Shown here: positions 39,531-49,805 of the stretch, piece after piece | How the letters are laid out: every line of letters starts with the position of its first letter | Position numbering within the stretch: position 1 is the stretch's first letter | Source of the DNA: Thiobacillus sp. | GTDB taxonomy: Bacteria > Pseudomonadota > Gammaproteobacteria > Burkholderiales > Thiobacillaceae | DNA: 64,000 nucleotides | Reading direction: 5' to 3' | Assembly: GCA_019459055.1 (NCBI GenBank) | Contig: JAIBEI010000050.1 | Location: 62,001 to 126,000, forward strand | Notes under the pieces: generated by a model | The model's database searches: none | What the model was told of the DNA's origin: nothing | Seen by the model: the letters and a program-made list of their open reading frames with translations, nothing else | Made by a program: the position numbers and the translations under genes

Positions 39531-39851
39531 GCATCGGGTCGGCAGCCCGGTTGCTTTGATGCCACCCAGAATGGGAGGGCAGAAACCGATGCGGATATGG
39601 AAAATGGAGAACGGCCAATCCACATCCGATGTGTCGGAAAATTTTACACTTCCCAAATCGACGGCATACCTGATTCGTCGAAATGAATGCAAAATCCATA
39701 CAAATCAATTCGTTGAATACAGATCCTCATTTCTGGAACAGATTGTGCTTTTATCAAGACATTGCTTGGCAATGAATCTCATCCAGATTCCAAGCTCGGT
39801 TCTTAAGCGCAGCCTGCGCGCATGAACAATAACAAATGGAGGCATCTGATC
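39531..39851. other. AT-richer regulatory spacer before the PEP-CTERM gene
   Basis: About 320 bases without a supported gene. Base composition is clearly more AT-rich than the surroundings. It contains a possible weak stem just after the permease stop, the candidate half-site GTGTCGG at 39631-39637, an AAAATTTT core, and the candidate sigma-54 promoter at 39734. An 89-codon open frame exists here but lacks a ribosome site and recognisable content. Confidence 0.55.
39734..39749 (+). promoter_or_regulatory. Candidate sigma-54 promoter of the PEP-CTERM gene
   Basis: TGGAACAGATTGTGC followed by T keeps GG and GC exactly ten bases apart and differs from the TGGCACR-N4-TTGC consensus at two positions. 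The expected transcript start is about 90 bases before the chosen ATG at 39852. This is the second such site in the window; the first precedes the EPS operon. Confidence 0.5.
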
Positions 39852-40913
39852 ATGACGACACCACCCACCCACCCAAGCGCACGACGTCTCGGCGTGCTGG
39901 GCGTTGCGGTTTATACCTTGCTCAGCCCGTCCGGAAAAATCATCTCCGGCGCAGCTGCGGCCATCTTGCTGGCAGGCGGACTCATGACGCAACTGCGTCC
40001 AGCTTCCCCGCCCGCCGCCCAAGCCCCCGCACCAACCCCTGTCGCCCCCACCCGCCTGGCCCACAGCGCGTCCTCTGCGCCCGTTTTCACCTACATCGAA
40101 CTCGATGGACAAATGCTACCCGTGGTGCTGACCGAAAGCTCGACGAGTAACAGCCCTGTCGGACGCGGATCCGCGTCTGTCTCGCCTTCCGACTACCCAT
40201 CGAGCAGCGGTGGACGCGGATCGGCGTCTGTCTCGTCTTCTGTCTACCCATCTAACGGCGGCGGGCGCGGACCGGGAGCGGGTTCGCCACCTTCCGGCCC
40301 TCGCCTAGGCTCGCCGAGCCCTCCCGGCGGGCTCCCGCCCGAAGCTTCGCAGCCGGACGGTACCCCAACGCCTCCGACCACGACCGGCCGTATACCACCG
40401 ACACACCTCGCCAGTTCCGGTGATCCTACCGGTAACGAGCCGAACGACGCGGGCTCGCCCCCGCCGCAGGGCGAACCGGGAAACGGGTCGCGTGAATCGC
40501 CTGACAACGTCCCCGGGGTTCTGGCCGAAGCACCGGAATCTCAGTTCACACCGGGAAATGATGCTGGCGCGCCAACGGCACCGCTGCAGGACGAACCCCG
40601 CCACGAACTGCTCGAGCCGCCCTTCTTTGGCAGCGTGCCGAGTCCCTTCGAAGCACCAGAATCGCAACTCCCAATGGGAATGGACGATCTACTCAACCCA
40701 GGAATGGACGATCCACTCAACCCACTCAACCCGTTGGTCCCACTTTCCGAGCAGCCCGAGCCGCTTCTGCTCACGTCGCCATACGACGGCCAGTCGCTGC
40801 CGCAAATCGCGGCTGCCGTGCCGGAGCCTTCGGTGATCGCTTTGATGCTGCTGGGGTTGACCGCATTGGGCTGGGCGGGGCGCCGTCGGCCATCCGCCAC
40901 GCAACGCACCTAG
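39852..40913 (+). CDS. PEP-CTERM sorting-domain protein, low complexity, Pro/Ser/Gly-rich
   Basis: A 353-residue exported protein. I chose the ATG at 39852, which has GGAGG nine bases upstream; an ATG at 39822 lacks a site. The N-terminus is Thr/Pro-rich and then hydrophobic ([19 protein letters not shown]), a signal or anchor segment. The body is disordered-looking: two tandem copies of a 17-residue unit ([17 protein letters not shown] and a variant), Pro/Gly-rich sequence, then acidic DDLLNP-type repeats. The C-terminus is a textbook sorting signal: [19 protein letters not shown] followed by AGRRR. It should be processed by XrtA. The stop overlaps that of lipA (CTAG). Confidence 0.9.
40161..40262 (+). 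repeat. Two tandem 51-base repeats inside the PEP-CTERM gene
   Basis: Units at 40161-40211 and 40212-40262 both begin GGACGCGGATC(C/G)GCGTCTG and encode the 17-residue Gly/Ser-rich unit. A third, degenerate start (GGGCGCGG) follows. The high similarity of the copies points to recent duplication. Confidence 0.75.
40677..40724 (+). repeat. Two tandem 24-base repeats inside the PEP-CTERM gene
   Basis: GGAATGGACGATC followed by (T/C)ACTCAACCCA occurs twice, at 40677-40700 and 40701-40724, encoding GMDDLLNP and GMDDPLNP. A partial third copy follows. Confidence 0.7.
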
Positions 40914-41842
40914 CCTTCGATACCCGCCGCCTGCTGGTCGGCGTGGTAACTTGACCGCACCATCGGGCCGCAGGCGGCATGCCTGAAACCCATCGCCAGC
41001 GCTTCCTGCTCGAACTGCGCAAAGCGCTCGGGCGTGACGAATCGCAGCACCGGCAGATGGTGCTGCGAAGGCTGCAGATACTGCCCCAAAGTGAGCATGT
41101 CGACGCCGTGCGCACGCAGGTCGCGCATCACCTCCAGGATCTCGTCGTCCTCTTCGCCCAGCCCCAGCATCAGGCCCGACTTGGTCGGGATGGCGGGATG
41201 GCGTGCCTTGAAGTCCTGCAGCAGCTTCAGCGAGTGCGCATAGTCGGCGCCGGGGCGCGCCGCCTTGTACAGGCGCGGCACAGTTTCCAGGTTGTGGTTC
41301 ATCACGTCGGGCGGCGCACGATCGAGCATGGCGAGCGCCTTGTCGAGCCGGCCGCGGAAATCCGGGGTGAGGATTTCGATGCGGGTGGCCGGCGAGGCTT
41401 CGCGCACCGCCGCGATGCACAGCGCAAAATGCTCGGCCCCGCCATCGCGCAGGTCGTCGCGGTCGACGCTGGTGATCACCACGTATTTCAGCGCCATCAG
41501 GGCGATGGTCTCGGCCAGATGGCGTGGCTCGTCCACGTCCGGCGGCAGCGGGGTGCCGTGGCCGACGTCGCAGAACGGGCAGCGCCGCGTGCACAGGTCG
41601 CCGAGGATCATGAAGGTGGCGATGCCGTGGCCGAAGCATTCGCCCAGATTGGGGCATGAGGCTTCCTCGCACACGGTATGCAGCTTCGCCTCGCGCAGGA
41701 TGTCCTTCAGGCGTCCGACATTGGGTACGTTGGACGATTTGGCACGAATCCACGACGGCAACCTCATCCGAGGTTGCGGCACGATCTTGATCGGGATGCG
41801 TGCGGTCTTCGCCGCGCCTTTGTGCTGGATAGGATCTGCCAT
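40910..41842 (-). CDS. lipA: Lipoyl synthase
   Basis: A 310-residue radical-SAM enzyme that inserts two sulfurs into protein-bound octanoyl groups. The auxiliary cluster motif is [12 protein letters not shown] (about 58-69), and the radical-SAM motif is [10 protein letters not shown] (about 84-93). Typical segments follow: [31 protein letters not shown] and [15 protein letters not shown]. Length is normal. It lies a few kilobases from lipB, with a hypothetical gene and a thioredoxin-like gene between. Divergent from the hypothetical gene at 41881, it converges with the PEP-CTERM gene. Confidence 0.97.
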
Positions 41843-43086: not shown

Positions 43087-43725
43087 TCAGGAATAAATCG
43101 TGTCGAGCAAGGCTTGGGCGAGCGCCTGCCCGGCCTGCGGCGGGGACAGCTTCACGCCGAGATCGCGGCATTGCGTCACCAGCATCCCGGCGTAGCCGCA
43201 CGGGTTGATGGCGGCGAACGGCGCCAGATCCATGTCGACGTTGAATGCCATCCCGTGATAGGTGCAGCCTTGCTTGACGCGCAGACCGAGCGCGGCGACC
43301 TTGGCGCCGTCGACATAGATGCCGGGGGCGCCGGCCAGCCGTGCGGCAGTCACGCCCTGCCCCGCCAGCACGTTGATCACCGCCTGCTCCATGCGCGTCA
43401 CCAGTTCGCGGATGCCGTAGCCGCGCTGCCGCAGGTCGACCAGCACATAGACCACCACCTGACCCGGCCCGTGGTAGGTGATCTGGCCGCCGCGGTCGAT
43501 CGGCACCACGGGAATGTCGGTTGCAGCGATCAGATGCTCCGGCTTACCGGCCTGCCCCTGGGTATAGACCGGCGGATGCTCCAGCAGCCACAGCTCGTCC
43601 GGGGTGTCGGCCGTGCGCCGCGCGGTGAAATCCTGCATCGCCCGCCAGGTCGGCTCGTACTCGACCCGCCCCAATTCCCTAATCAGCGCCCGCTCCCCGC
43701 CCTCCGCTCTCGGCTCTCCGATCAC
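43087..43725 (-). CDS. lipB: Octanoyl-[acyl-carrier-protein]:protein transferase (lipoyl(octanoyl) transferase)
   Basis: About 212 residues. The GTG start overlaps the ybeD stop (GTGA), so I prefer it to the slightly longer ATG start at 43743. It transfers octanoate from ACP to lipoyl domains before LipA acts. Motifs: LLEHPPVYTQGQAG (about 47-60), PIDRGGQITYHGPGQVVVYV (about 75-94), the catalytic Lys in KVAALGLRVKQG and Cys in NPCGYAGM near the C-terminus. The first 15-20 residues (GEPRAEGGER) look like read-through of a short repeat. Confidence 0.95.
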   Translation of the reverse strand: MIGEPRAEGGERALIRELGRVEYEPTWRAMQDFTARRTADTPDELWLLEHPPVYTQGQAGKPEHLIAATDIPVVPIDRGGQITYHGPGQVVVYVLVDLRQRGYGIRELVTRMEQAVINVLAGQGVTAARLAGAPGIYVDGAKVAALGLRVKQGCTYHGMAFNVDMDLAPFAAINPCGYAGMLVTQCRDLGVKLSPPQAGQALAQALLDTIYS

Positions 43726-43988
43726 AACGCCATCTTCACCCACGGATGCGCGGTGATCTCGCGATACAACGCATCGAGCTGCGCCTTCGAGGTGGCGCGC
43801 ACCACACAGGTCACCGACAGATAGTTGCCGCTGCTGGACACCCGGATCTCGATGGTTTCGGCCCTGAAATCGGGGGCGTGGCGCAGCACCAATTCGACCA
43901 TGGTCTGCGCGAAGTCGTCGCGCCGCTCGCCCATGATCTTGACCGGGAAATCGGTGGGGAATTTCAGCAGCGTCTCTTCTTCGCTCAT
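43722..43988 (-). CDS. ybeD: DUF493 (YbeD) family protein
   Basis: An 88-residue small cytosolic protein of the YbeD/DUF493 family with a ferredoxin-like fold. Characteristic segments are LLKFPTDFPVKIMGERRDDF near the start and SSSGNYLSVTCVVRATSKAQ in the middle, ending VKMAL. The start MSEEETLL overlaps the aminotransferase stop (ATGA). The family sits between dac/dat and lipB in most gamma- and betaproteobacteria, but its function is not established. Confidence 0.93.
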   Translation of the reverse strand: MSEEETLLKFPTDFPVKIMGERRDDFAQTMVELVLRHAPDFRAETIEIRVSSSGNYLSVTCVVRATSKAQLDALYREITAHPWVKMAL

Positions 43989-44848
43989 GCGCGCATGACC
44001 TGCTGCTTGAAAGTTTGATACAAGCCGTCCATCCGCTGCGCCAGCGGTCCCGGCACGCCAGCGCCGACCGGCACGCCGTCGAGTTTCACGATGGCCATGA
44101 TTTCCTTCGTGGACGAGGTCATCCACAGTTCGTCGGCACTGCGCACCTCGGCCTCGGAAATCGCCCGTGCCTCATGCGGAATGCCGTGCGCGGCGGCGAG
44201 CTCCAGCACCACGTCGTAGGTGACGCCGGTCAACATCAGGCTGGACGGCGGCGGTGCCCGCAGCACGCCGTCCTTCACCACGAAGATGTTGCTTGCCGCG
44301 CCTTCGGTCAGGTAGCCGTCGCGCAGCATCACGGTTTCGGCACAGTCGGCGTCGACCGCCTGCTGCCGCAGCAGGAGGTTGGCCAGCAGTGAGATCGCCT
44401 TGATGTTGCAGCGCAGCCAGCGGTTGTCGACGGCGCTGACGGCGCACACCCCGGCGGCCTTTTGTGCGGGCGTGGACGTCACCAGCCGCTGTGAAAACAT
44501 GAAGACGGTCGGCGCCGCGCCCTGCGGAAAGGCATGATCGCGCGGCGGCTGTCCTTCTGTAGGCGTGCCGCGCGTGACCTGTATGTAAAGCGACTGGTCG
44601 GCGAAGTCCTGCAGTTCGACCAGCCGCAGGATCAACTCGCGCCAAACCCCGGTTTCATGCGGGTTGGCCAGGCGGATGCCGTCGAGGCTGCCCTGCAGGC
44701 GGCGCAGGTGTTCGTCGAGCCGGAACGGCTTCTTCGAGTACACCGGAATCAGTTCGTAGACGCCGTCGCCGAAGACGAAGCCGCGGTCGAGCGCCGAAAC
44801 CTTCGCGTCGGCAAGCGGCAGGAACCGGCCGTTCAGATAAGCGTTCAT
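43985..44848 (-). CDS. dat: D-amino acid aminotransferase (PLP fold IV)
   Basis: A 287-residue PLP-dependent fold-IV aminotransferase. The N-terminus NGRFLPLADAKVSALDRGFV and FGDGVYELIPVYSKKPFRLD are typical of D-amino acid transaminases. The PLP-binding Lys lies in RCNIKAISLLANLLLRQQA near residue 148. The later LTEGAASNIFVVKDG and PPSSLMLTGVTYD complete the pattern. It interconverts D-alanine and D-glutamate and so feeds peptidoglycan. It overlaps the PBP5-like gene upstream (ATGA) and ybeD downstream. Confidence 0.92.
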   Translation of the reverse strand: MNAYLNGRFLPLADAKVSALDRGFVFGDGVYELIPVYSKKPFRLDEHLRRLQGSLDGIRLANPHETGVWRELILRLVELQDFADQSLYIQVTRGTPTEGQPPRDHAFPQGAAPTVFMFSQRLVTSTPAQKAAGVCAVSAVDNRWLRCNIKAISLLANLLLRQQAVDADCAETVMLRDGYLTEGAASNIFVVKDGVLRAPPPSSLMLTGVTYDVVLELAAAHGIPHEARAISEAEVRSADELWMTSSTKEIMAIVKLDGVPVGAGVPGPLAQRMDGLYQTFKQQVMRA

Positions 44849-45960
44849 TTGCCGAAGAAGAGCCGGATCGAATCCCAGCCGCGGCCGAAGATGCCGGCCA
44901 CGGTGACATCGTGCAACGCGACCAGGGGATAGTCGCCGACCGGCTTGCCGTCAAGCACCAGCCGCAGCGTCCCGATACGCTGGCCTCTACGCACCGGCGC
45001 CACGATCGGCTGCTGGGTAATGACTTCAGCCTTGACGCGAACGGCGCTGCCCGTGGGAACCAGCAAATAAAAATCCTGCGCAAACCCCATGCTCACCATC
45101 GAGCGAGCGCCGCGGTAGAGGGGCGCCACCTTGACCGACTGCTGCGCACGGTAAAGCCGAATGCTTTCAAAATTCTCAAAGCCGTAATTGAGCAAGCGCA
45201 GGGCATCCTGAGTGCGCTGGGCGTCGGACCGCCCGCCCAGCACCACGGCGATGCGGTGCTGGTCGCCGCGCTGGGCCGACGCCGCCATGCAAAAACCGGC
45301 CTGGACAGTGCGCCCGACCTTGAGTCCGGTCACCGTGCTGTCGCGCCACAACAGGCGATTGCCGTTGTAGTGCGTGATGCCCTTGAAGGCCAGTTCCTTT
45401 TGCGTGAATAAATCCTTCTGCTCGGGAAAATCGCGCAACAGCGCGCGCGACAGCAAGGCGAGGTCGCGGGCGCTCGATTCGTGCCCCGGCTCGGTCAATC
45501 CGGTGGCGTTCATGAAGCGGGTTTTGGTCATGCCGAGCCGCTTGGCTTCGCGGTTCATGCGCTCGACAAATGCCGCCTCGCTGCCGTCGGTCGCAATCAC
45601 CAGCACAAGCGTGGCATCGCTGGCCGACTGCACCAGCATCGCCTGCAGCAGGATGTCGACGCTCACCTGCTCGCCCGTCTTGAGAAACACGCGTGCGCCG
45701 TCGGTCTCGGTGGCGGATTCCGGCACCGTCAGCGCCTCGCCCAGGCTCAGCTTGTTCTTGCGGATATCGCCCAACAGCACGTAGGCCGTCATCAGCTGCG
45801 TCAGCGAGGCCGGCGCCAGCGGCAGATCGGCCTGATACGAAGCCAGCTCGCGTCCGCTGGTCTGGTCGATCACCACCCAGGCGCGCGCCATGATGCCGGC
45901 AGGCGCCGCCCAGGCCGATGTGGAAAGCAGGAGCGCCAGCCCCAGCCAAAAAATCTTCAT
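44845..45960 (-). CDS. PBP5/DacA-like protein with degenerate catalytic motifs
   Basis: A 371-residue exported protein with the full two-domain layout of D-alanyl-D-alanine carboxypeptidases. It has a signal peptide (ending SAWAA), a transpeptidase-fold domain, and the C-terminal beta domain with amphipathic anchor (GRGWDSIRLFFGK). All three active-site motifs are altered. SxxK reads S52-L-T-Q55, so the general-base Lys is Gln (CAG at 45796-45798). The SGN motif reads S112-A-S114. KTG reads K214-V-G216. The protein is thus expected to bind but not hydrolyse pentapeptide. The reading frame is intact over full length, so it is not an obvious pseudogene. It is embedded between dat and rlpA, the usual dacA/dacC place. 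Confidence 0.9.
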   Translation of the reverse strand: MKIFWLGLALLLSTSAWAAPAGIMARAWVVIDQTSGRELASYQADLPLAPASLTQLMTAYVLLGDIRKNKLSLGEALTVPESATETDGARVFLKTGEQVSVDILLQAMLVQSASDATLVLVIATDGSEAAFVERMNREAKRLGMTKTRFMNATGLTEPGHESSARDLALLSRALLRDFPEQKDLFTQKELAFKGITHYNGNRLLWRDSTVTGLKVGRTVQAGFCMAASAQRGDQHRIAVVLGGRSDAQRTQDALRLLNYGFENFESIRLYRAQQSVKVAPLYRGARSMVSMGFAQDFYLLVPTGSAVRVKAEVITQQPIVAPVRRGQRIGTLRLVLDGKPVGDYPLVALHDVTVAGIFGRGWDSIRLFFGK

Positions 45961-45974
45961 GCCTGACCCTTAAT

Positions 45975-46808
45975 TCAATTGCGTCTGAGCAAGACAGCAT
46001 TCAGGTCGAGACGTTCCCGCAGTCGCGCGCGATCCGCCTGCGCCGCGTCGTCACCGGGATAAGGCCCGAGCTGCACGCGGTGCAAGGCGCCATTGAGCAC
46101 CACGCGGCTGCGACCGGCGTCAAGGTCGAGCGCGCGCGTCAGGCGGGTAAGCAATTGCTGCGCATGATTGGCGCGCGAAAACGCGCCCACCTGCAGATAG
46201 ACCCCTTCTTGCAACGCCTCGCCCTGCGTGTCATAGGCGGCCGGGTCGAGGCTTTCCACGCGCACCCGGGTGCTGCCGCGCTTCAGGTAACCGAGCTTGT
46301 GGGCGGCGGTGTACGACAGGTCGATGACGCGCTTGCTGTGAAACGGGCCACGGTCGTTGATGCGCACCACCACGGACTTGCCGTTGCCGAGCGCAGTGAC
46401 CCGCGCGTAACTCGGAATCGGCAGGGTGGGATGCGCGGCGGTCATGGCATACATGTCGTAGACCTCGCCCGATGCGGTTTTTTTGCCGTGGAAGCGGCGG
46501 CCGTACCATGAGGCCAGACCTTCCTCGCTGTGCGCGCGGCGTTCGGCCTGCGGCGTGTAGGTGTTGCCCAGCACAGCATAGGTGCGATTGGCGAAGCGGT
46601 GCAGCGGTTCGTCGCGAGGCACCGCGTCGGGAACGGCATCCAGATTGGCCGGCGCTTGGGCCCCGGGACCGTCGTCGAGGTAATAACCGCCGCTTTTGGC
46701 CGTCGTGGCGGGCGCGGGCTTGGCTGAGACGGATGGGCCGCTGCCGCAACCGGCGAGCGCCAGCACGGCGGCGAGCATGCCCAGAATCGGGATCGATATC
46801 TTGTTCAT
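45975..46808 (-). CDS. rlpA: RlpA septal-ring lytic transglycosylase (lipoprotein)
   Basis: A 277-residue outer-membrane lipoprotein with lipobox ALAGC. The double-psi beta-barrel domain shows EEGLASWYGRRFHGKKTASG (about 92-111) and VVVRINDRGPFHSKRVIDLS (about 139-158), with the catalytic Asp in NDRGPF. The C-terminal SPOR domain (about 195-277) binds denuded glycan strands at the septum. Family members cleave stemless glycans during division. It lies between the PBP5-like gene and rodA, as in most proteobacteria. Confidence 0.93.
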   Translation of the reverse strand: MNKISIPILGMLAAVLALAGCGSGPSVSAKPAPATTAKSGGYYLDDGPGAQAPANLDAVPDAVPRDEPLHRFANRTYAVLGNTYTPQAERRAHSEEGLASWYGRRFHGKKTASGEVYDMYAMTAAHPTLPIPSYARVTALGNGKSVVVRINDRGPFHSKRVIDLSYTAAHKLGYLKRGSTRVRVESLDPAAYDTQGEALQEGVYLQVGAFSRANHAQQLLTRLTRALDLDAGRSRVVLNGALHRVQLGPYPGDDAAQADRARLRERLDLNAVLLRRN

Positions 46809-46825: not shown

Positions 46826-47926
46826 TCACGATTTGTTGAGCTGGCGATGCGTCGCCACGCTCATCAGGATGCCCACCCCCAGCAGCAGCGTGATGAGCGC
46901 GGTGCCGCCGTAGCTCATCAGCGGCAACGGCACGCCGACCACCGGCAGAATGCCCGATACCATGCCCATGTTGACGAATGCGTAGGTGAACAGATTGAGG
47001 CTCAGCGTGGCCGCCATCAGCCGGCCGAACAGCGTCGGCGCCCGCGCCGCGATGACCAGGCCGCGCGCGACAATGGCCAGATACAGCCCCACCAGGAAAA
47101 TCGCCCCGACGTAGCCGAATTCCTCGCCGAACACGGCAAACACAAAATCGGTTGTCCGCTCCGGAATGAAATCGAGCTGGCTTTGCGAGCCCTGCATCCA
47201 GCCCTTGCCGAACATCCCGCCCGAGCCGATCGCGATGGTGGACTGGATAATGTGGTAGCCGGCGCCCAGCGGGTCGGACGTGGGATCGAGCAGGGTCAGC
47301 ACGCGGCGCTGCTGGTACTCGTGCATCAAGCCCCACACCACGGGCAAGCTGGCTGCGCCGAGTACCCCACCGCCGAGGATCACCTTCCATGGCAGGCCGG
47401 CGAAGAACAGCAGATAGAAGCCCGAGGCGCCGATCATCAGCGCCGTACCGAGATCGGGCTGGCGCAGGATCAGCAGGAACGGCACCAGCAGCAGTACGCC
47501 GGCGACCAGGAAGTGCTTCGCGCGCAGCACCGCCTCGTTGCGCTGGAAATACCAGGCCAGCGTCAAGGGTAGTGCCAGCTTCAGCAGTTCCGACGGCTGG
47601 AACGCCATGAATCCAAGGTTCAGCCAGCGCCGCGAGCCGTTGCGGACCTCGCCGAACAGCGCCACGCCGATCAGCAGCACCACGCCCGCGACAAACAAGG
47701 GCGGCCCCACCCTGGACAGCAGATGCGGCGGCACATTGGCCATCACCACCATCACCCCCAGCGCCAGCCCGATGTTGATCAGGTGGCCGCTGATGCGCGC
47801 CGGGCTCTGCCCCGATGCGCTCGTCACCACCGCCAGGCTGATGCTCAGCAACACGAGCACAAGGGTCAGCAGAATGCCGTCCAGATGGCTCAATCTGCGC
47901 ACGATCCAGTGGCTAGTCCGCGGCAT
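46826..47926 (-). CDS. rodA: RodA peptidoglycan glycosyltransferase (SEDS family)
   Basis: A 366-residue polytopic SEDS protein that polymerises lipid II for cell elongation with PBP2. Diagnostic parts are NGSRRWLNLGFMAFQPSELLK (near residue 95-115; 20-residue core GSRRWLNLGFMAFQPSEL), LRQPDLGTALMIGASGFYLL (about 153-172), the loop around QSQLDFIPERTTDFVFAVFG with the catalytic-type Asp (about 245-264), and MSYGGTALITLL near the C-terminus. It overlaps mrdA by 14 bases. Confidence 0.96.
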   Translation of the reverse strand: MPRTSHWIVRRLSHLDGILLTLVLVLLSISLAVVTSASGQSPARISGHLINIGLALGVMVVMANVPPHLLSRVGPPLFVAGVVLLIGVALFGEVRNGSRRWLNLGFMAFQPSELLKLALPLTLAWYFQRNEAVLRAKHFLVAGVLLLVPFLLILRQPDLGTALMIGASGFYLLFFAGLPWKVILGGGVLGAASLPVVWGLMHEYQQRRVLTLLDPTSDPLGAGYHIIQSTIAIGSGGMFGKGWMQGSQSQLDFIPERTTDFVFAVFGEEFGYVGAIFLVGLYLAIVARGLVIAARAPTLFGRLMAATLSLNLFTYAFVNMGMVSGILPVVGVPLPLMSYGGTALITLLLGVGILMSVATHRQLNKS

Positions 47927-49805
47927 TTTCTGCCTCCAGTTTCATGTCGCCGGGTCGCTTCCCGGTCAGGTAATAATCGAGGACTGCGCGCGCGATCGGC
48001 GCCGCGGTGCCGCTACCCGAGCCGCCGTTTTCCACCATCACCGCCACCGCGATGGTGGGGTTCTCGGTCGGGGCATAGGCAATGAACAGCGCATGGTCGA
48101 GATGCTTCCGGGTCAGCCGGTCGGCGTCGTAGCGCGCGCCCTGCTTGATGCCGACCACCTGCGCGGTGCCGGTCTTGCCGGCGACGGTGTACGAGGCGCC
48201 GGCCGCCGATCTGGCCGCGGTGCCGCCCGGGCGCATCACGTCCATCATGCCTTCGCGTACGACCTCCAGGTGTTTCGGAGTGATCGCCAGTTGGGCGCGC
48301 GCGCCACCCGGCTGCGGCCGCCAGGTATGGGTAAGCGGGTCGCGCACCGCCTGCACCAGGCGCGGCTCGATCCGCACGCCGCCGTTGGCAAGCATGGCCG
48401 CCGCCACCGCCAGTTGCAGCGGGGTGGTCAGGTGATATCCCTGACCGATGCCGGCAATCACCGTCTCGCCGGGATACCAGGGCTGCTTGAAGCGGCGCTG
48501 CTTCCAGTCGCGCGAGGGGAGCAGCCCGGATGACTCGCCGTCCAGATCGATGCCGGTTTTTTCGCCCAGGCCGAACTGCGCCAGGTAGTCGTGCATGCGA
48601 TCGACCCCCATGTCCACCGCCAGCTTGTAGTAATAGACATCGCACGACTGGGAGATGGATCGGCGCAGATCGACGACCCCATGCCCGCCGCGTTTCCAGT
48701 CACGGAACTGATGGCTGCTGTTGGGCAGGCTGAAAAAGCCGGGATCGCTGATGCTGTCCGACGGCTTGCGCAACCCCAGTTCGAGGCCGGCCAGCGCCAT
48801 CAGCGGCTTGATCGTCGAACCGGGAGGATAGATTCCCCGCAGGGCGCGGTTCACCATCGGCCGGTCCGCCGATTCGTTGAGCGACTTCCAGGTTTCCGGG
48901 TCGATGCCGTCGACGAACAGGTTGGGGTCGAATCCCGGCCGGGAGACCAGCGCCAGCACCCCGCCGGTATTGGGGTCGAGCGCCACCAGCCCGCCGAGGT
49001 AATCGCCGAACGCATGTTCGGCCACCGCCTGCAGTTCCGCATCGAGATGCAGGCGCAGATCCTTGCCCGGTACCGGCGGAATCCGCGACAGCATGCGCAC
49101 CGCCCGGCCGCTGGCGTCTGTCTCCATCTGGTCGAAGCCGGTGCGGCCGTGCAGCAGGGTTTCGTAGCTCTGCTCCAGCCCGGTCTTGCCGATATGGGCG
49201 CTGCCCTTGTAGTTCTGCTCGCGGCCGTCGTCGCGCAGCTGCTGCAGGTCGCGATCGTTGATGCGGCCGACAAACCCAAGCACGTGCGCCATGCCTGGCC
49301 CGGCCTGGTAGTTGCGGAATAGCCGCGCCTTCACTTCCACCCCCGGCAGGCGATAGCGGTTGGCGGCGATGATCGCCACCTCCTCGTCGGTCAGCTTGCT
49401 TTTCAGCGGCACGGTTTCGAACTCGTGCGACTCGCTCAGCAAACGACGAAAACGCCGCAGCTGCCCCGGTGTGATCTCGATCAGCGTACCCACCTCGGCC
49501 AGCGTGGCCTCCAGGTTGTCGGTCCGCGCCCGCGTCAGCTCCAGCGTGTAGGCCGAATAGTTTTCCGCCAGGATGCGATCGTTACGATCGAGGATCAGCC
49601 CGCGGTTGGGCGCAGTGGGCACCCGCGAAATACGGTTGCTTTCGGCGCGCTGGATATAGTGCTCATGCTGTACGACCTGCAAATAAAACCCGCGCGCCAG
49701 CAGCGCGGCAGCCAGCAGCGCGACAAAGGCCGCGCCCACTTTCAGCCGCCCATGAAAGCGGGCCAGCTCACGATCCAGGTTTTTCAGTTGCGTGGCGAAA
49801 CCCAT
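47913..49805 (-). CDS. mrdA: Penicillin-binding protein 2
   Basis: A 630-residue class B transpeptidase for lateral-wall synthesis. There is one N-terminal membrane segment (about 22-42), then the pedestal domain starting APNRGLILDRNDRILAENYS. The transpeptidase domain has the nucleophile motif S330-T-I-K333 (PPGSTIKPLMAL), the second motif S387-C-D389 (SQSCDVYYYK) and the K544-T-G-T motif (VAGKTGTAQVV). All are intact, unlike those of the PBP5-like neighbour. It acts with RodA and MreBCD. Confidence 0.96.
   Translation of the reverse strand: MGFATQLKNLDRELARFHGRLKVGAAFVALLAAALLARGFYLQVVQHEHYIQRAESNRISRVPTAPNRGLILDRNDRILAENYSAYTLELTRARTDNLEATLAEVGTLIEITPGQLRRFRRLLSESHEFETVPLKSKLTDEEVAIIAANRYRLPGVEVKARLFRNYQAGPGMAHVLGFVGRINDRDLQQLRDDGREQNYKGSAHIGKTGLEQSYETLLHGRTGFDQMETDASGRAVRMLSRIPPVPGKDLRLHLDAELQAVAEHAFGDYLGGLVALDPNTGGVLALVSRPGFDPNLFVDGIDPETWKSLNESADRPMVNRALRGIYPPGSTIKPLMALAGLELGLRKPSDSISDPGFFSLPNSSHQFRDWKRGGHGVVDLRRSISQSCDVYYYKLAVDMGVDRMHDYLAQFGLGEKTGIDLDGESSGLLPSRDWKQRRFKQPWYPGETVIAGIGQGYHLTTPLQLAVAAAMLANGGVRIEPRLVQAVRDPLTHTWRPQPGGARAQLAITPKHLEVVREGMMDVMRPGGTAARSAAGASYTVAGKTGTAQVVGIKQGARYDADRLTRKHLDHALFIAYAPTENPTIAVAVMVENGGSGSGTAAPIARAVLDYYLTGKRPGDMKLEAENAAD

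Follow-up and report, generated by a model that had tools for sequence, protein, structure and literature searches.

Why a genus should keep a full-length penicillin-binding protein 5 (PBP5) in which all three catalytic motifs are altered is the question raised by the dacA-locus gene of Thiobacillus sp. contig JAIBEI010000050.1, within the stretch of 64,000 nucleotides analysed here (the window). The motifs are lost throughout the genus, the length, the locus, the modelled fold and purifying selection are retained, and the two PBP5 copies of the genome have separate origins. On balance, and with modest confidence, we favour a reading in which catalysis passed to an acquired PBP5 and the resident copy was kept as a membrane-anchored, non-catalytic wall factor. 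The gene and the features of its protein are given below; PBP5 positions, here and in all residue counts, follow the numbering of E. coli PBP5.

44845..45960, minus strand: dacA-locus gene, pseudo-PBP5 of 371 aa with an ATG start (open reading frame and Pfam)
45907..45960, minus strand: putative signal peptide, residues 1-18 (MKIFWLGLALLLSTSAWA), read by eye
45796..45807, minus strand: SLTQ, residues 52-55, replacing SxxK (PBP5 Lys47 to Gln; sequence and alignment)
45619..45627, minus strand: SAS, residues 112-114, replacing SGN (Gly111 to Ala, Asn112 to Ser; sequence and alignment)
45361..45363, minus strand: Gly200 at the position of PBP5 Arg198 (NGN instead of NRN; alignment)
45313..45321, minus strand: KVG, residues 214-216, replacing KTG (Thr214 to Val; sequence and alignment)
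45310..45312, minus strand: Arg217 at the position of PBP5 His216 (alignment)
44902..45171, minus strand: PBP5_C stem domain, residues 264-353 (Pfam PF07943)
44851..44892, minus strand: C-terminal helix, residues 357-370, putative amphipathic membrane anchor (helix from the model, anchor role by homology to PBP5)

The sequence-only reading had placed SLTQ, SAS and KVG, with Q55, S114 and V215, in an open reading frame at 44845-45960, and this is exactly where they lie. The protein therefore has neither SxxK with its lysine base, nor SxN, nor KTG or KSG. It belongs to the PBP5 family by its domain pair, Peptidase_S11 (1.7e-58) and PBP5_C (6.4e-19), each above the Pfam cut-off, and is 35% identical to E. 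coli DacA across 355 aa. The curated NCBIfam models for DacA, DacC and DacD gave it 240-248 bits, below their cut-offs of 610-765, but this score has no discriminating power because an intact second copy in the same genome, described below, also fails them (324-341 bits). An AlphaFold2 model, built on an alignment of 33 sequences (that of the window and fetched ones), has a predicted local distance difference test score (pLDDT) of 92.2 and the PBP5 fold. Foldseek placed PBP5 and PBP6 at the top among solved structures, with a template modelling (TM) score of 0.85 to 4k91 and of 0.89 to 1nzo at 1.6 A, and a comparison with viral structures returned just distant S11 and other matches. The last three blocks of the model, in the region of the C-terminal helix, have pLDDT values of 86, 79 and 47, and R360, W362, D363 and L367 of this helix are invariant in 30 sequences. 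By homology, the protein would be exported and anchored in the membrane.

The motif changes are common to the whole genus. A search of 117 genomes of the family gave 53 matches at E 1e-120 or better, every one from the same genus, which we infer to be Thiobacillus from the nearest named records (Thiobacillus metagenome-assembled genomes with 95% and 94% protein identity, and T. denitrificans strain RG with 90%). The genus has 56 genomes in this search, and the three that yielded no such match are G008, where the gene is in two pieces, G025 (81% complete) and G121 (84% complete). One protein was read per genome from the 53 genomes, and the split copy of G008 (L049 and L146) stands outside every count of 53. 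This is the sole broken copy seen in the genus; it comes from a draft that is 70% complete, a few bases of the stretch are unknown, and it may be an assembly fault.

The 53 orthologues are 53 distinct sequences of 370-373 aa, all with ATG starts and zero internal stops, and their minimum pairwise identity is 62%. Lys47, Asn112, Arg198 and Thr214 are lost jointly in all of them. The position of Lys47 (residue 55 of the window protein) holds Gln in 52 and His in one, that of Ser87 Ala in 47, Ser in five and Pro in one, and that of Gly111 Ala in 53. Asn112 (residue 114) is never Asn, being replaced by Ser (36), Gly (11), Val (3), Thr (2) or Ala (1), and Arg198 is never Arg (Gly 37, Ala 12, Ser 2, Asp 2). 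Thr214 (residue 215) is always Val or Ala (KVG 45, KAG 8) and His216 is Arg in 51 and His in two, so that the replacements of Arg198 and His216 extend the three motif changes noticed at first. Ser44, Ser110, Lys213 and Gly215 are retained in 53/53. Synonymous codons vary at the fixed positions; since Gln47 is written CAG in 47 orthologues and CAA in five, it is the residue and not the codon that is conserved. Sequencing or assembly error, or chance, is ruled out by losses shared among 53 orthologues of at least 62% identity with synonymous variation around the fixed residues, and the sequence-only reading had been right to discount it. With its clear homology and a loss of catalytic residues that is shared by a whole clade, the protein qualifies by sequence as a pseudoenzyme of the PBP5 family.

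In PBP5, Arg198 and Thr214 hold the carboxylate of D-Ala. Because these contacts have gone together with the Lys47 base, both carboxypeptidase activity and penicillin binding are unlikely, and the protein very probably has no D,D-carboxypeptidase activity, as far as its sequence allows this to be judged. The pseudoenzyme first proposed from the loss of the lysine base is thus supported; of the roles proposed with it, peptidoglycan binding is weakened by the additional loss of Arg198 and Thr214. The protein could instead be a slow penicillin binder or have residual D,D-carboxypeptidase activity, with Lys213 or a different group acting as base in place of Lys47. This would agree with the retention of the nucleophile Ser44 and of Lys213, and an Asn112Ser mutant is said to have retained activity in a PBP5 mutagenesis paper of 1994. 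Nevertheless Lys47, Arg198 and Thr214 are lost together in 53/53 and His216 in 51/53, and the genome holds an intact PBP5, which make residual activity distinctly unlikely.

This intact PBP5 is encoded at C25 of the same draft genome (2,932,595 bases, 99.98% complete), which has four S11 proteins. It has SLTK, SGN and KTG and a complete PBP5 layout, and is the other dac gene whose search had been suggested as a check on the pseudoenzyme. A further S11 type in the genome, with SITK/SDN/KTG, is PBP7-like to judge by its motifs. In addition, L003:1399-2193 encodes a 264-aa S11 protein with SLTK/SDN/KTG, too short for a PBP5_C domain after S11, and several genomes of family f25 also hold S11 matches in frames of 266-274 aa. 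In the genus a second match of PBP5 length was found in 35 of 36 genomes (the exception, G022, is 75% complete), with motifs intact in the 23 of 23 copies read. Among 274 genomes of the class, of which few belong to the order, the best relative of this copy lies outside the order and is 60% identical. The dead copies make up a single clade (100/100) within the dacA of the order when 44 chosen proteins are placed in a tree, with a stem of 0.80-0.86 changes per column (two trees), and the C25-type copy groups among proteins from outside the order (trees of 64 and 44 chosen rows). An origin of the active copy by duplication inside Thiobacillus was rejected, a single clade with the dead copy having p 4e-11 in the approximately unbiased (AU) test. 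Given this grouping and this rejection, the second PBP5 is most simply read from the sequences as a horizontal gain from outside the order.

With a second PBP5 gained, the resident gene might be redundant and slowly decaying without selection, as the long stem branch of the dead clade and the split copy of the G008 draft could indicate. This is highly improbable, since a copy is present in 53/56 genomes of the genus, all those read are full-length without internal stops, and the ratio of nonsynonymous to synonymous rates (omega) across 16 copies, 0.10, disfavours gene decay. A Goldman-Yang (GY) codon model over the tree gave omega values of 0.103 for the dead copies (16 of 53), 0.079 for the C25-type copies (16 of 23) and 0.092 for the active dacA of the family (16 of 31), all of them rough as the copies are far apart; the pseudoenzyme is therefore, by this rough measure, under purifying selection. 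Neighbouring genes in the same genomes gave 0.115 (rlpA), 0.085 (dat) and 0.039 (part of rodA), in sets where the window's genome is counted twice (rlpA and dat have 17 rows each). The sequence-only reading would have yielded to intact close relatives together with a ratio near 1 in this copy; none of the 53 orthologues is intact, and the ratio is not near 1.

When the dead copies are divided by region, omega is 0.070 in the pocket (stretches around the motifs, chosen by us), 0.101 in the rest of domain I and 0.102 in domain II, and the pocket of two active groups gave 0.029 and 0.038. The pocket may have been re-purposed for a new ligand or reaction, using the invariant Ser44-Ser110-Lys213 and the newly fixed Gln47, Ala111 and Arg216. 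An omega under that of the rest of the protein would be expected of such a pocket, as would the fixation of S44, S110, K213, G215 and A111 in 53/53, of Q47 in 52/53 and of R216 in 51/53 with synonymous codons varying. However, its constraint is about half that of the active enzymes, positions 112, 198 and 214 each hold two to five different residues, and other motif-dead lineages retain different residues, Lys213 or Ser44 for example being lost, so that we consider re-purposing unlikely. A shift of constraint to the stem domain is not supported by omega (0.102 in dead copies against 0.106-0.113 in active ones); mean column entropy in this domain is 0.62 in the dead clade and 0.87-0.98 in the two active groups.

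The favoured reading, a resident copy kept as a non-catalytic wall factor, also draws on the genes around it, which are the following.

43985..44848, minus strand: class IV aminotransferase gene (open reading frame and Pfam), which we take to be dat, with a 4-nt ATGA overlap with the end of dacA
45975..46808, minus strand: rlpA, DPBB and SPOR (open reading frame, Pfam, match to the E. coli protein)
46826..47926, minus strand: rodA/mrdB (NCBIfam rodA_shape above cut-off; 53% to E. coli MrdB)
47913..49805, minus strand: mrdA, PBP2 (NCBIfam pbp2_mrdA above cut-off; 40% to E. coli MrdA)
43722..44018, minus strand: ybeD, start uncertain (40% to E. coli YbeD)
43087..43743, minus strand: lipB (NCBIfam above cut-off; 52% to E. 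coli LipB)
40910..41842, minus strand: lipA (NCBIfam above cut-off)

All of them surround dacA on the same strand, lipA at a greater distance. A gap of 14 nt separates the start of dacA from rlpA, and the dacA stop overlaps the start of dat, so the standard dac position between dat and rlpA described from the sequence is confirmed. The stretches fetched show rlpA, dat and ybeD next to 53/53 genus copies and rodA and lipB next to 51/53; only the longer stretches reach mrdA (15) and lipA (4). Other genera of the family have intact copies at this locus: 30/30 automatically fetched loci carry SLTK/SGN/KTG, with rlpA beside 24, dat beside 28, ybeD beside 28 and at least one neighbour at every locus. 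These 30 are the best-scoring of 50 places found by searching 51 of the 61 genomes that the family has outside the genus, and one extra copy from another genus (L174), also intact, brings the intact copies read to 31. Elsewhere in the window, positions 39822-40913 of the plus strand encode a secreted-looking, Pro- and Ser-rich protein of 363 aa with a possible sorting signal near its end, which we presume to be of the PEP-CTERM kind.

Motif-dead copies were also found in other lineages (f and g denote families and genera, G and L genomes and loci). Of 150 genomes surveyed across the order, 137 had a match and 90 loci were read, namely the 30 best and 60 mostly low-scoring ones, six of the 90 being second copies within a genome. 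S..K, S.N and K[TS]G are present in 77 of them and missing from 13, which fall in families f2, f18, f19, f25, f209 and f215; ybeD and lipB adjoin 12 of these 13, the exception being L366. Another motif-dead copy is that of G057 (f23), all readable relatives of which are intact by the same test. In genus g25 of family f25 (60 genomes sampled, 30 loci read), 11/11 such copies have lost Lys213 and carry SAN, and four of the 11 have lost Ser44; Lys47, Asn112 and Arg198 stay, with Arg198 kept in 11/11 and Thr214 in 10/11, and dat, ybeD and lipB adjoin every copy. PBP5_C is retained in 10/10 motif-dead copies of other lineages that were scanned. L050-L072, which are from other phyla, stand outside the table of intact and dead loci, and for the residue counts L162 and L165 were moved from group D to groups H and F and the partial L260 was placed in no group.

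Because intact and motif-dead copies occur in the same families (f2, f23, f25, f209 and f215), the sequences argue for repeated loss of the motifs in the order. On a quick tree of 87 rows the label live or dead by motif needs at least 8 changes, a count made uncertain by long branches and weak supports, in which the tool does not distinguish loss from gain and the f25 departures L222, L227 and L229 have no state. These three loci and L360, all from other genera of f25, show single or double departures (SLAK with GTG, KTS, NTG, ALTK), perhaps early steps of the same loss. Moreover, L361, L362, L363 and L365 (f207, f209 and f15) are a second PBP5 type with intact motifs and NWN rather than NRN, Trp standing for Arg198. 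Among 70 loci read from the rest of the class (30 top-scoring and 40 mostly low-scoring ones), 68 are intact, one is odd (L490) and one is readable at KTG alone (L491). L490 (G226) is a motif-dead PBP5 with GLTK/NGN/QTS. The proportions, 13/90 in the order and 1/69 in the class outside it (Fisher p 0.004), give only a hint that motif-dead PBP5 is commoner in the order, because both samples lean to the extremes of the similarity ranking.

A second intact PBP5 is present in both f209 genomes. The other S11 proteins read in f2, f18 and f19 have SITK or SVTK, SEN and KTG, except that G613 (f18) has none, and 17 of the 18 genomes queried gave a match to S13 (PBP4-type) proteins. In G613, a 97% complete draft, the sole S11 match (L390) is motif-dead (GLTA/GAH/MAA) and no S13 match was obtained at E 0.001, leaving this genome without a recognisable D,D-carboxypeptidase of the S11 and S13 families.

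The dead protein might also bind pentapeptide stems without cutting them and shield them for cross-linking. Such a role has been proposed for the PBP5 paralogue PBP6a (DacC) of E. coli, which according to a proposal in PMC5596342 binds pentapeptide mimics with little hydrolysis. The fold retained in the model is in favour of this. Nevertheless Arg198 and Thr214, as contacts of the D-Ala carboxylate, are lost in 53/53, and shielding better suits g25, where both are kept in nearly all copies; for Thiobacillus we think it improbable.

Returning to the non-catalytic wall factor, the steps could have been these. The resident PBP5 of the Thiobacillus ancestor would have become a pseudoenzyme before, during or after the gain of a second PBP5, and the acquired protein, from outside the order, would provide D,D-carboxypeptidase activity. 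The resident copy, encoded with mrdA, rodA and rlpA, would be exported, anchored in the membrane and kept for a non-catalytic function, either in a structural or regulatory partnership with the elongation machinery of the lateral wall or as the inactive subunit of a mixed PBP5-type dimer. Such roles are favoured because inactive E. coli PBP5 is tolerated beside active PBP5; by this analogy, the elongation machinery or a PBP5-type dimer is a possible partner, a proposal in which we have somewhat less than even confidence. Only tentatively do we suggest for the order as a whole that its PBP5 contributes to wall growth by a separable, non-enzymatic function under selection, which in that reading would be why the catalytic site could be discarded repeatedly (the at least 8 changes) while the protein stays, and that the Thiobacillus pocket (Ser44-Gln47-Ser110-Lys213-Arg216) is a new site for a ligand or partner.

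Several observations weigh against a non-catalytic resident relieved by an acquired enzyme. The pocket is still the slowest-evolving part of the dead copies, and Ser44, Ser110 and Lys213 are invariant in the genus beyond what a pure scaffold needs. Of 68 columns fixed at 95% or more in 116 active proteins the dead clade has lost 15, nine in the pocket and six elsewhere; the losses strike key residues, though without significant concentration in the pocket (Fisher p of 0.56 in the genus and of 0.19 in g25). Beside the g25 copies rlpA is absent (0/11, within 1.5 kb flanks), so the tie to the elongation operon does not hold everywhere. A single PBP5 match each was found in the g25, f2, f18, f19 and f215 genomes, in G425 and in G057, and two only in f209; replacement is thus not a general condition, because these searches turned up no second PBP5 in most other motif-dead lineages. 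Finally, according to PMC2909392, E. coli PBP5-S44G fails to complement the shape defect of a carboxypeptidase-poor strain, and for this reason a dead PBP5 is not simply equivalent in E. coli.

Work on PBP5 as an enzyme goes back decades, and its contribution to cell shape is still to be explained. PMC2909392 calls the question of its localisation open as well. Natural, conserved, motif-dead PBP5s separate the protein from the reaction, which is apparently covered by an acquired enzyme in one genus, whereas the searches in several other lineages yielded no second PBP5. Whether the wall machinery also uses PBP5 as a structural or regulatory component thereby becomes directly testable. In addition, domain matches alone may lead to such proteins being annotated as carboxypeptidases, the name that Pfam gives to the window protein, and counts of penicillin targets based on genomes can be wrong.

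The Thiobacillus protein resembles E. coli PBP5 (DacA) and P. aeruginosa PBP5 (4k91) in its modelled fold, its two domains and its C-terminal helix, and differs from both in the replacement of Lys47, Asn112, Arg198, Thr214 and His216. The E. coli K-12 locus has the same order, mrdA-mrdB-rlpA-dacA-ybeD-lipB, to which the window adds dat behind dacA. PBP6a has intact catalytic motifs, whereas the Thiobacillus protein is the resident dacA itself. Among the open-licence papers listed by the literature searches, judged by title and start of abstract, no report of a naturally dead, conserved PBP5 was found, and the papers listed for wall proteins of T. denitrificans do not name that organism. In PMC6435803 mycobacterial homologues keep the motifs, DacB (MSMEG_6113, Rv3627c) being excepted in one passage and not in another. 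Pseudoenzymes are already known, also in wall biology: degenerate LytM proteins such as DipM are related to wall hydrolases, lack activity themselves and regulate the active enzymes (PMC10336132), although their fold and family are unrelated and the likeness is one of analogy only. The nearest parallel in behaviour comes from E. coli PBP5-S44G, which leaves midcell for the lateral wall (PMC2909392) and, according to PMC5596342, is found at the lateral wall in a different dimer state; there, bulging is caused by the presence of the inactive protein and not by missing activity, and is prevented by co-expressed active PBP5. Like that mutant, the Thiobacillus protein is a full-length PBP5, anchored by homology and predicted to be inactive, beside an active carboxypeptidase; unlike it, it is natural and keeps the nucleophile which the artificial S44G protein lacks.

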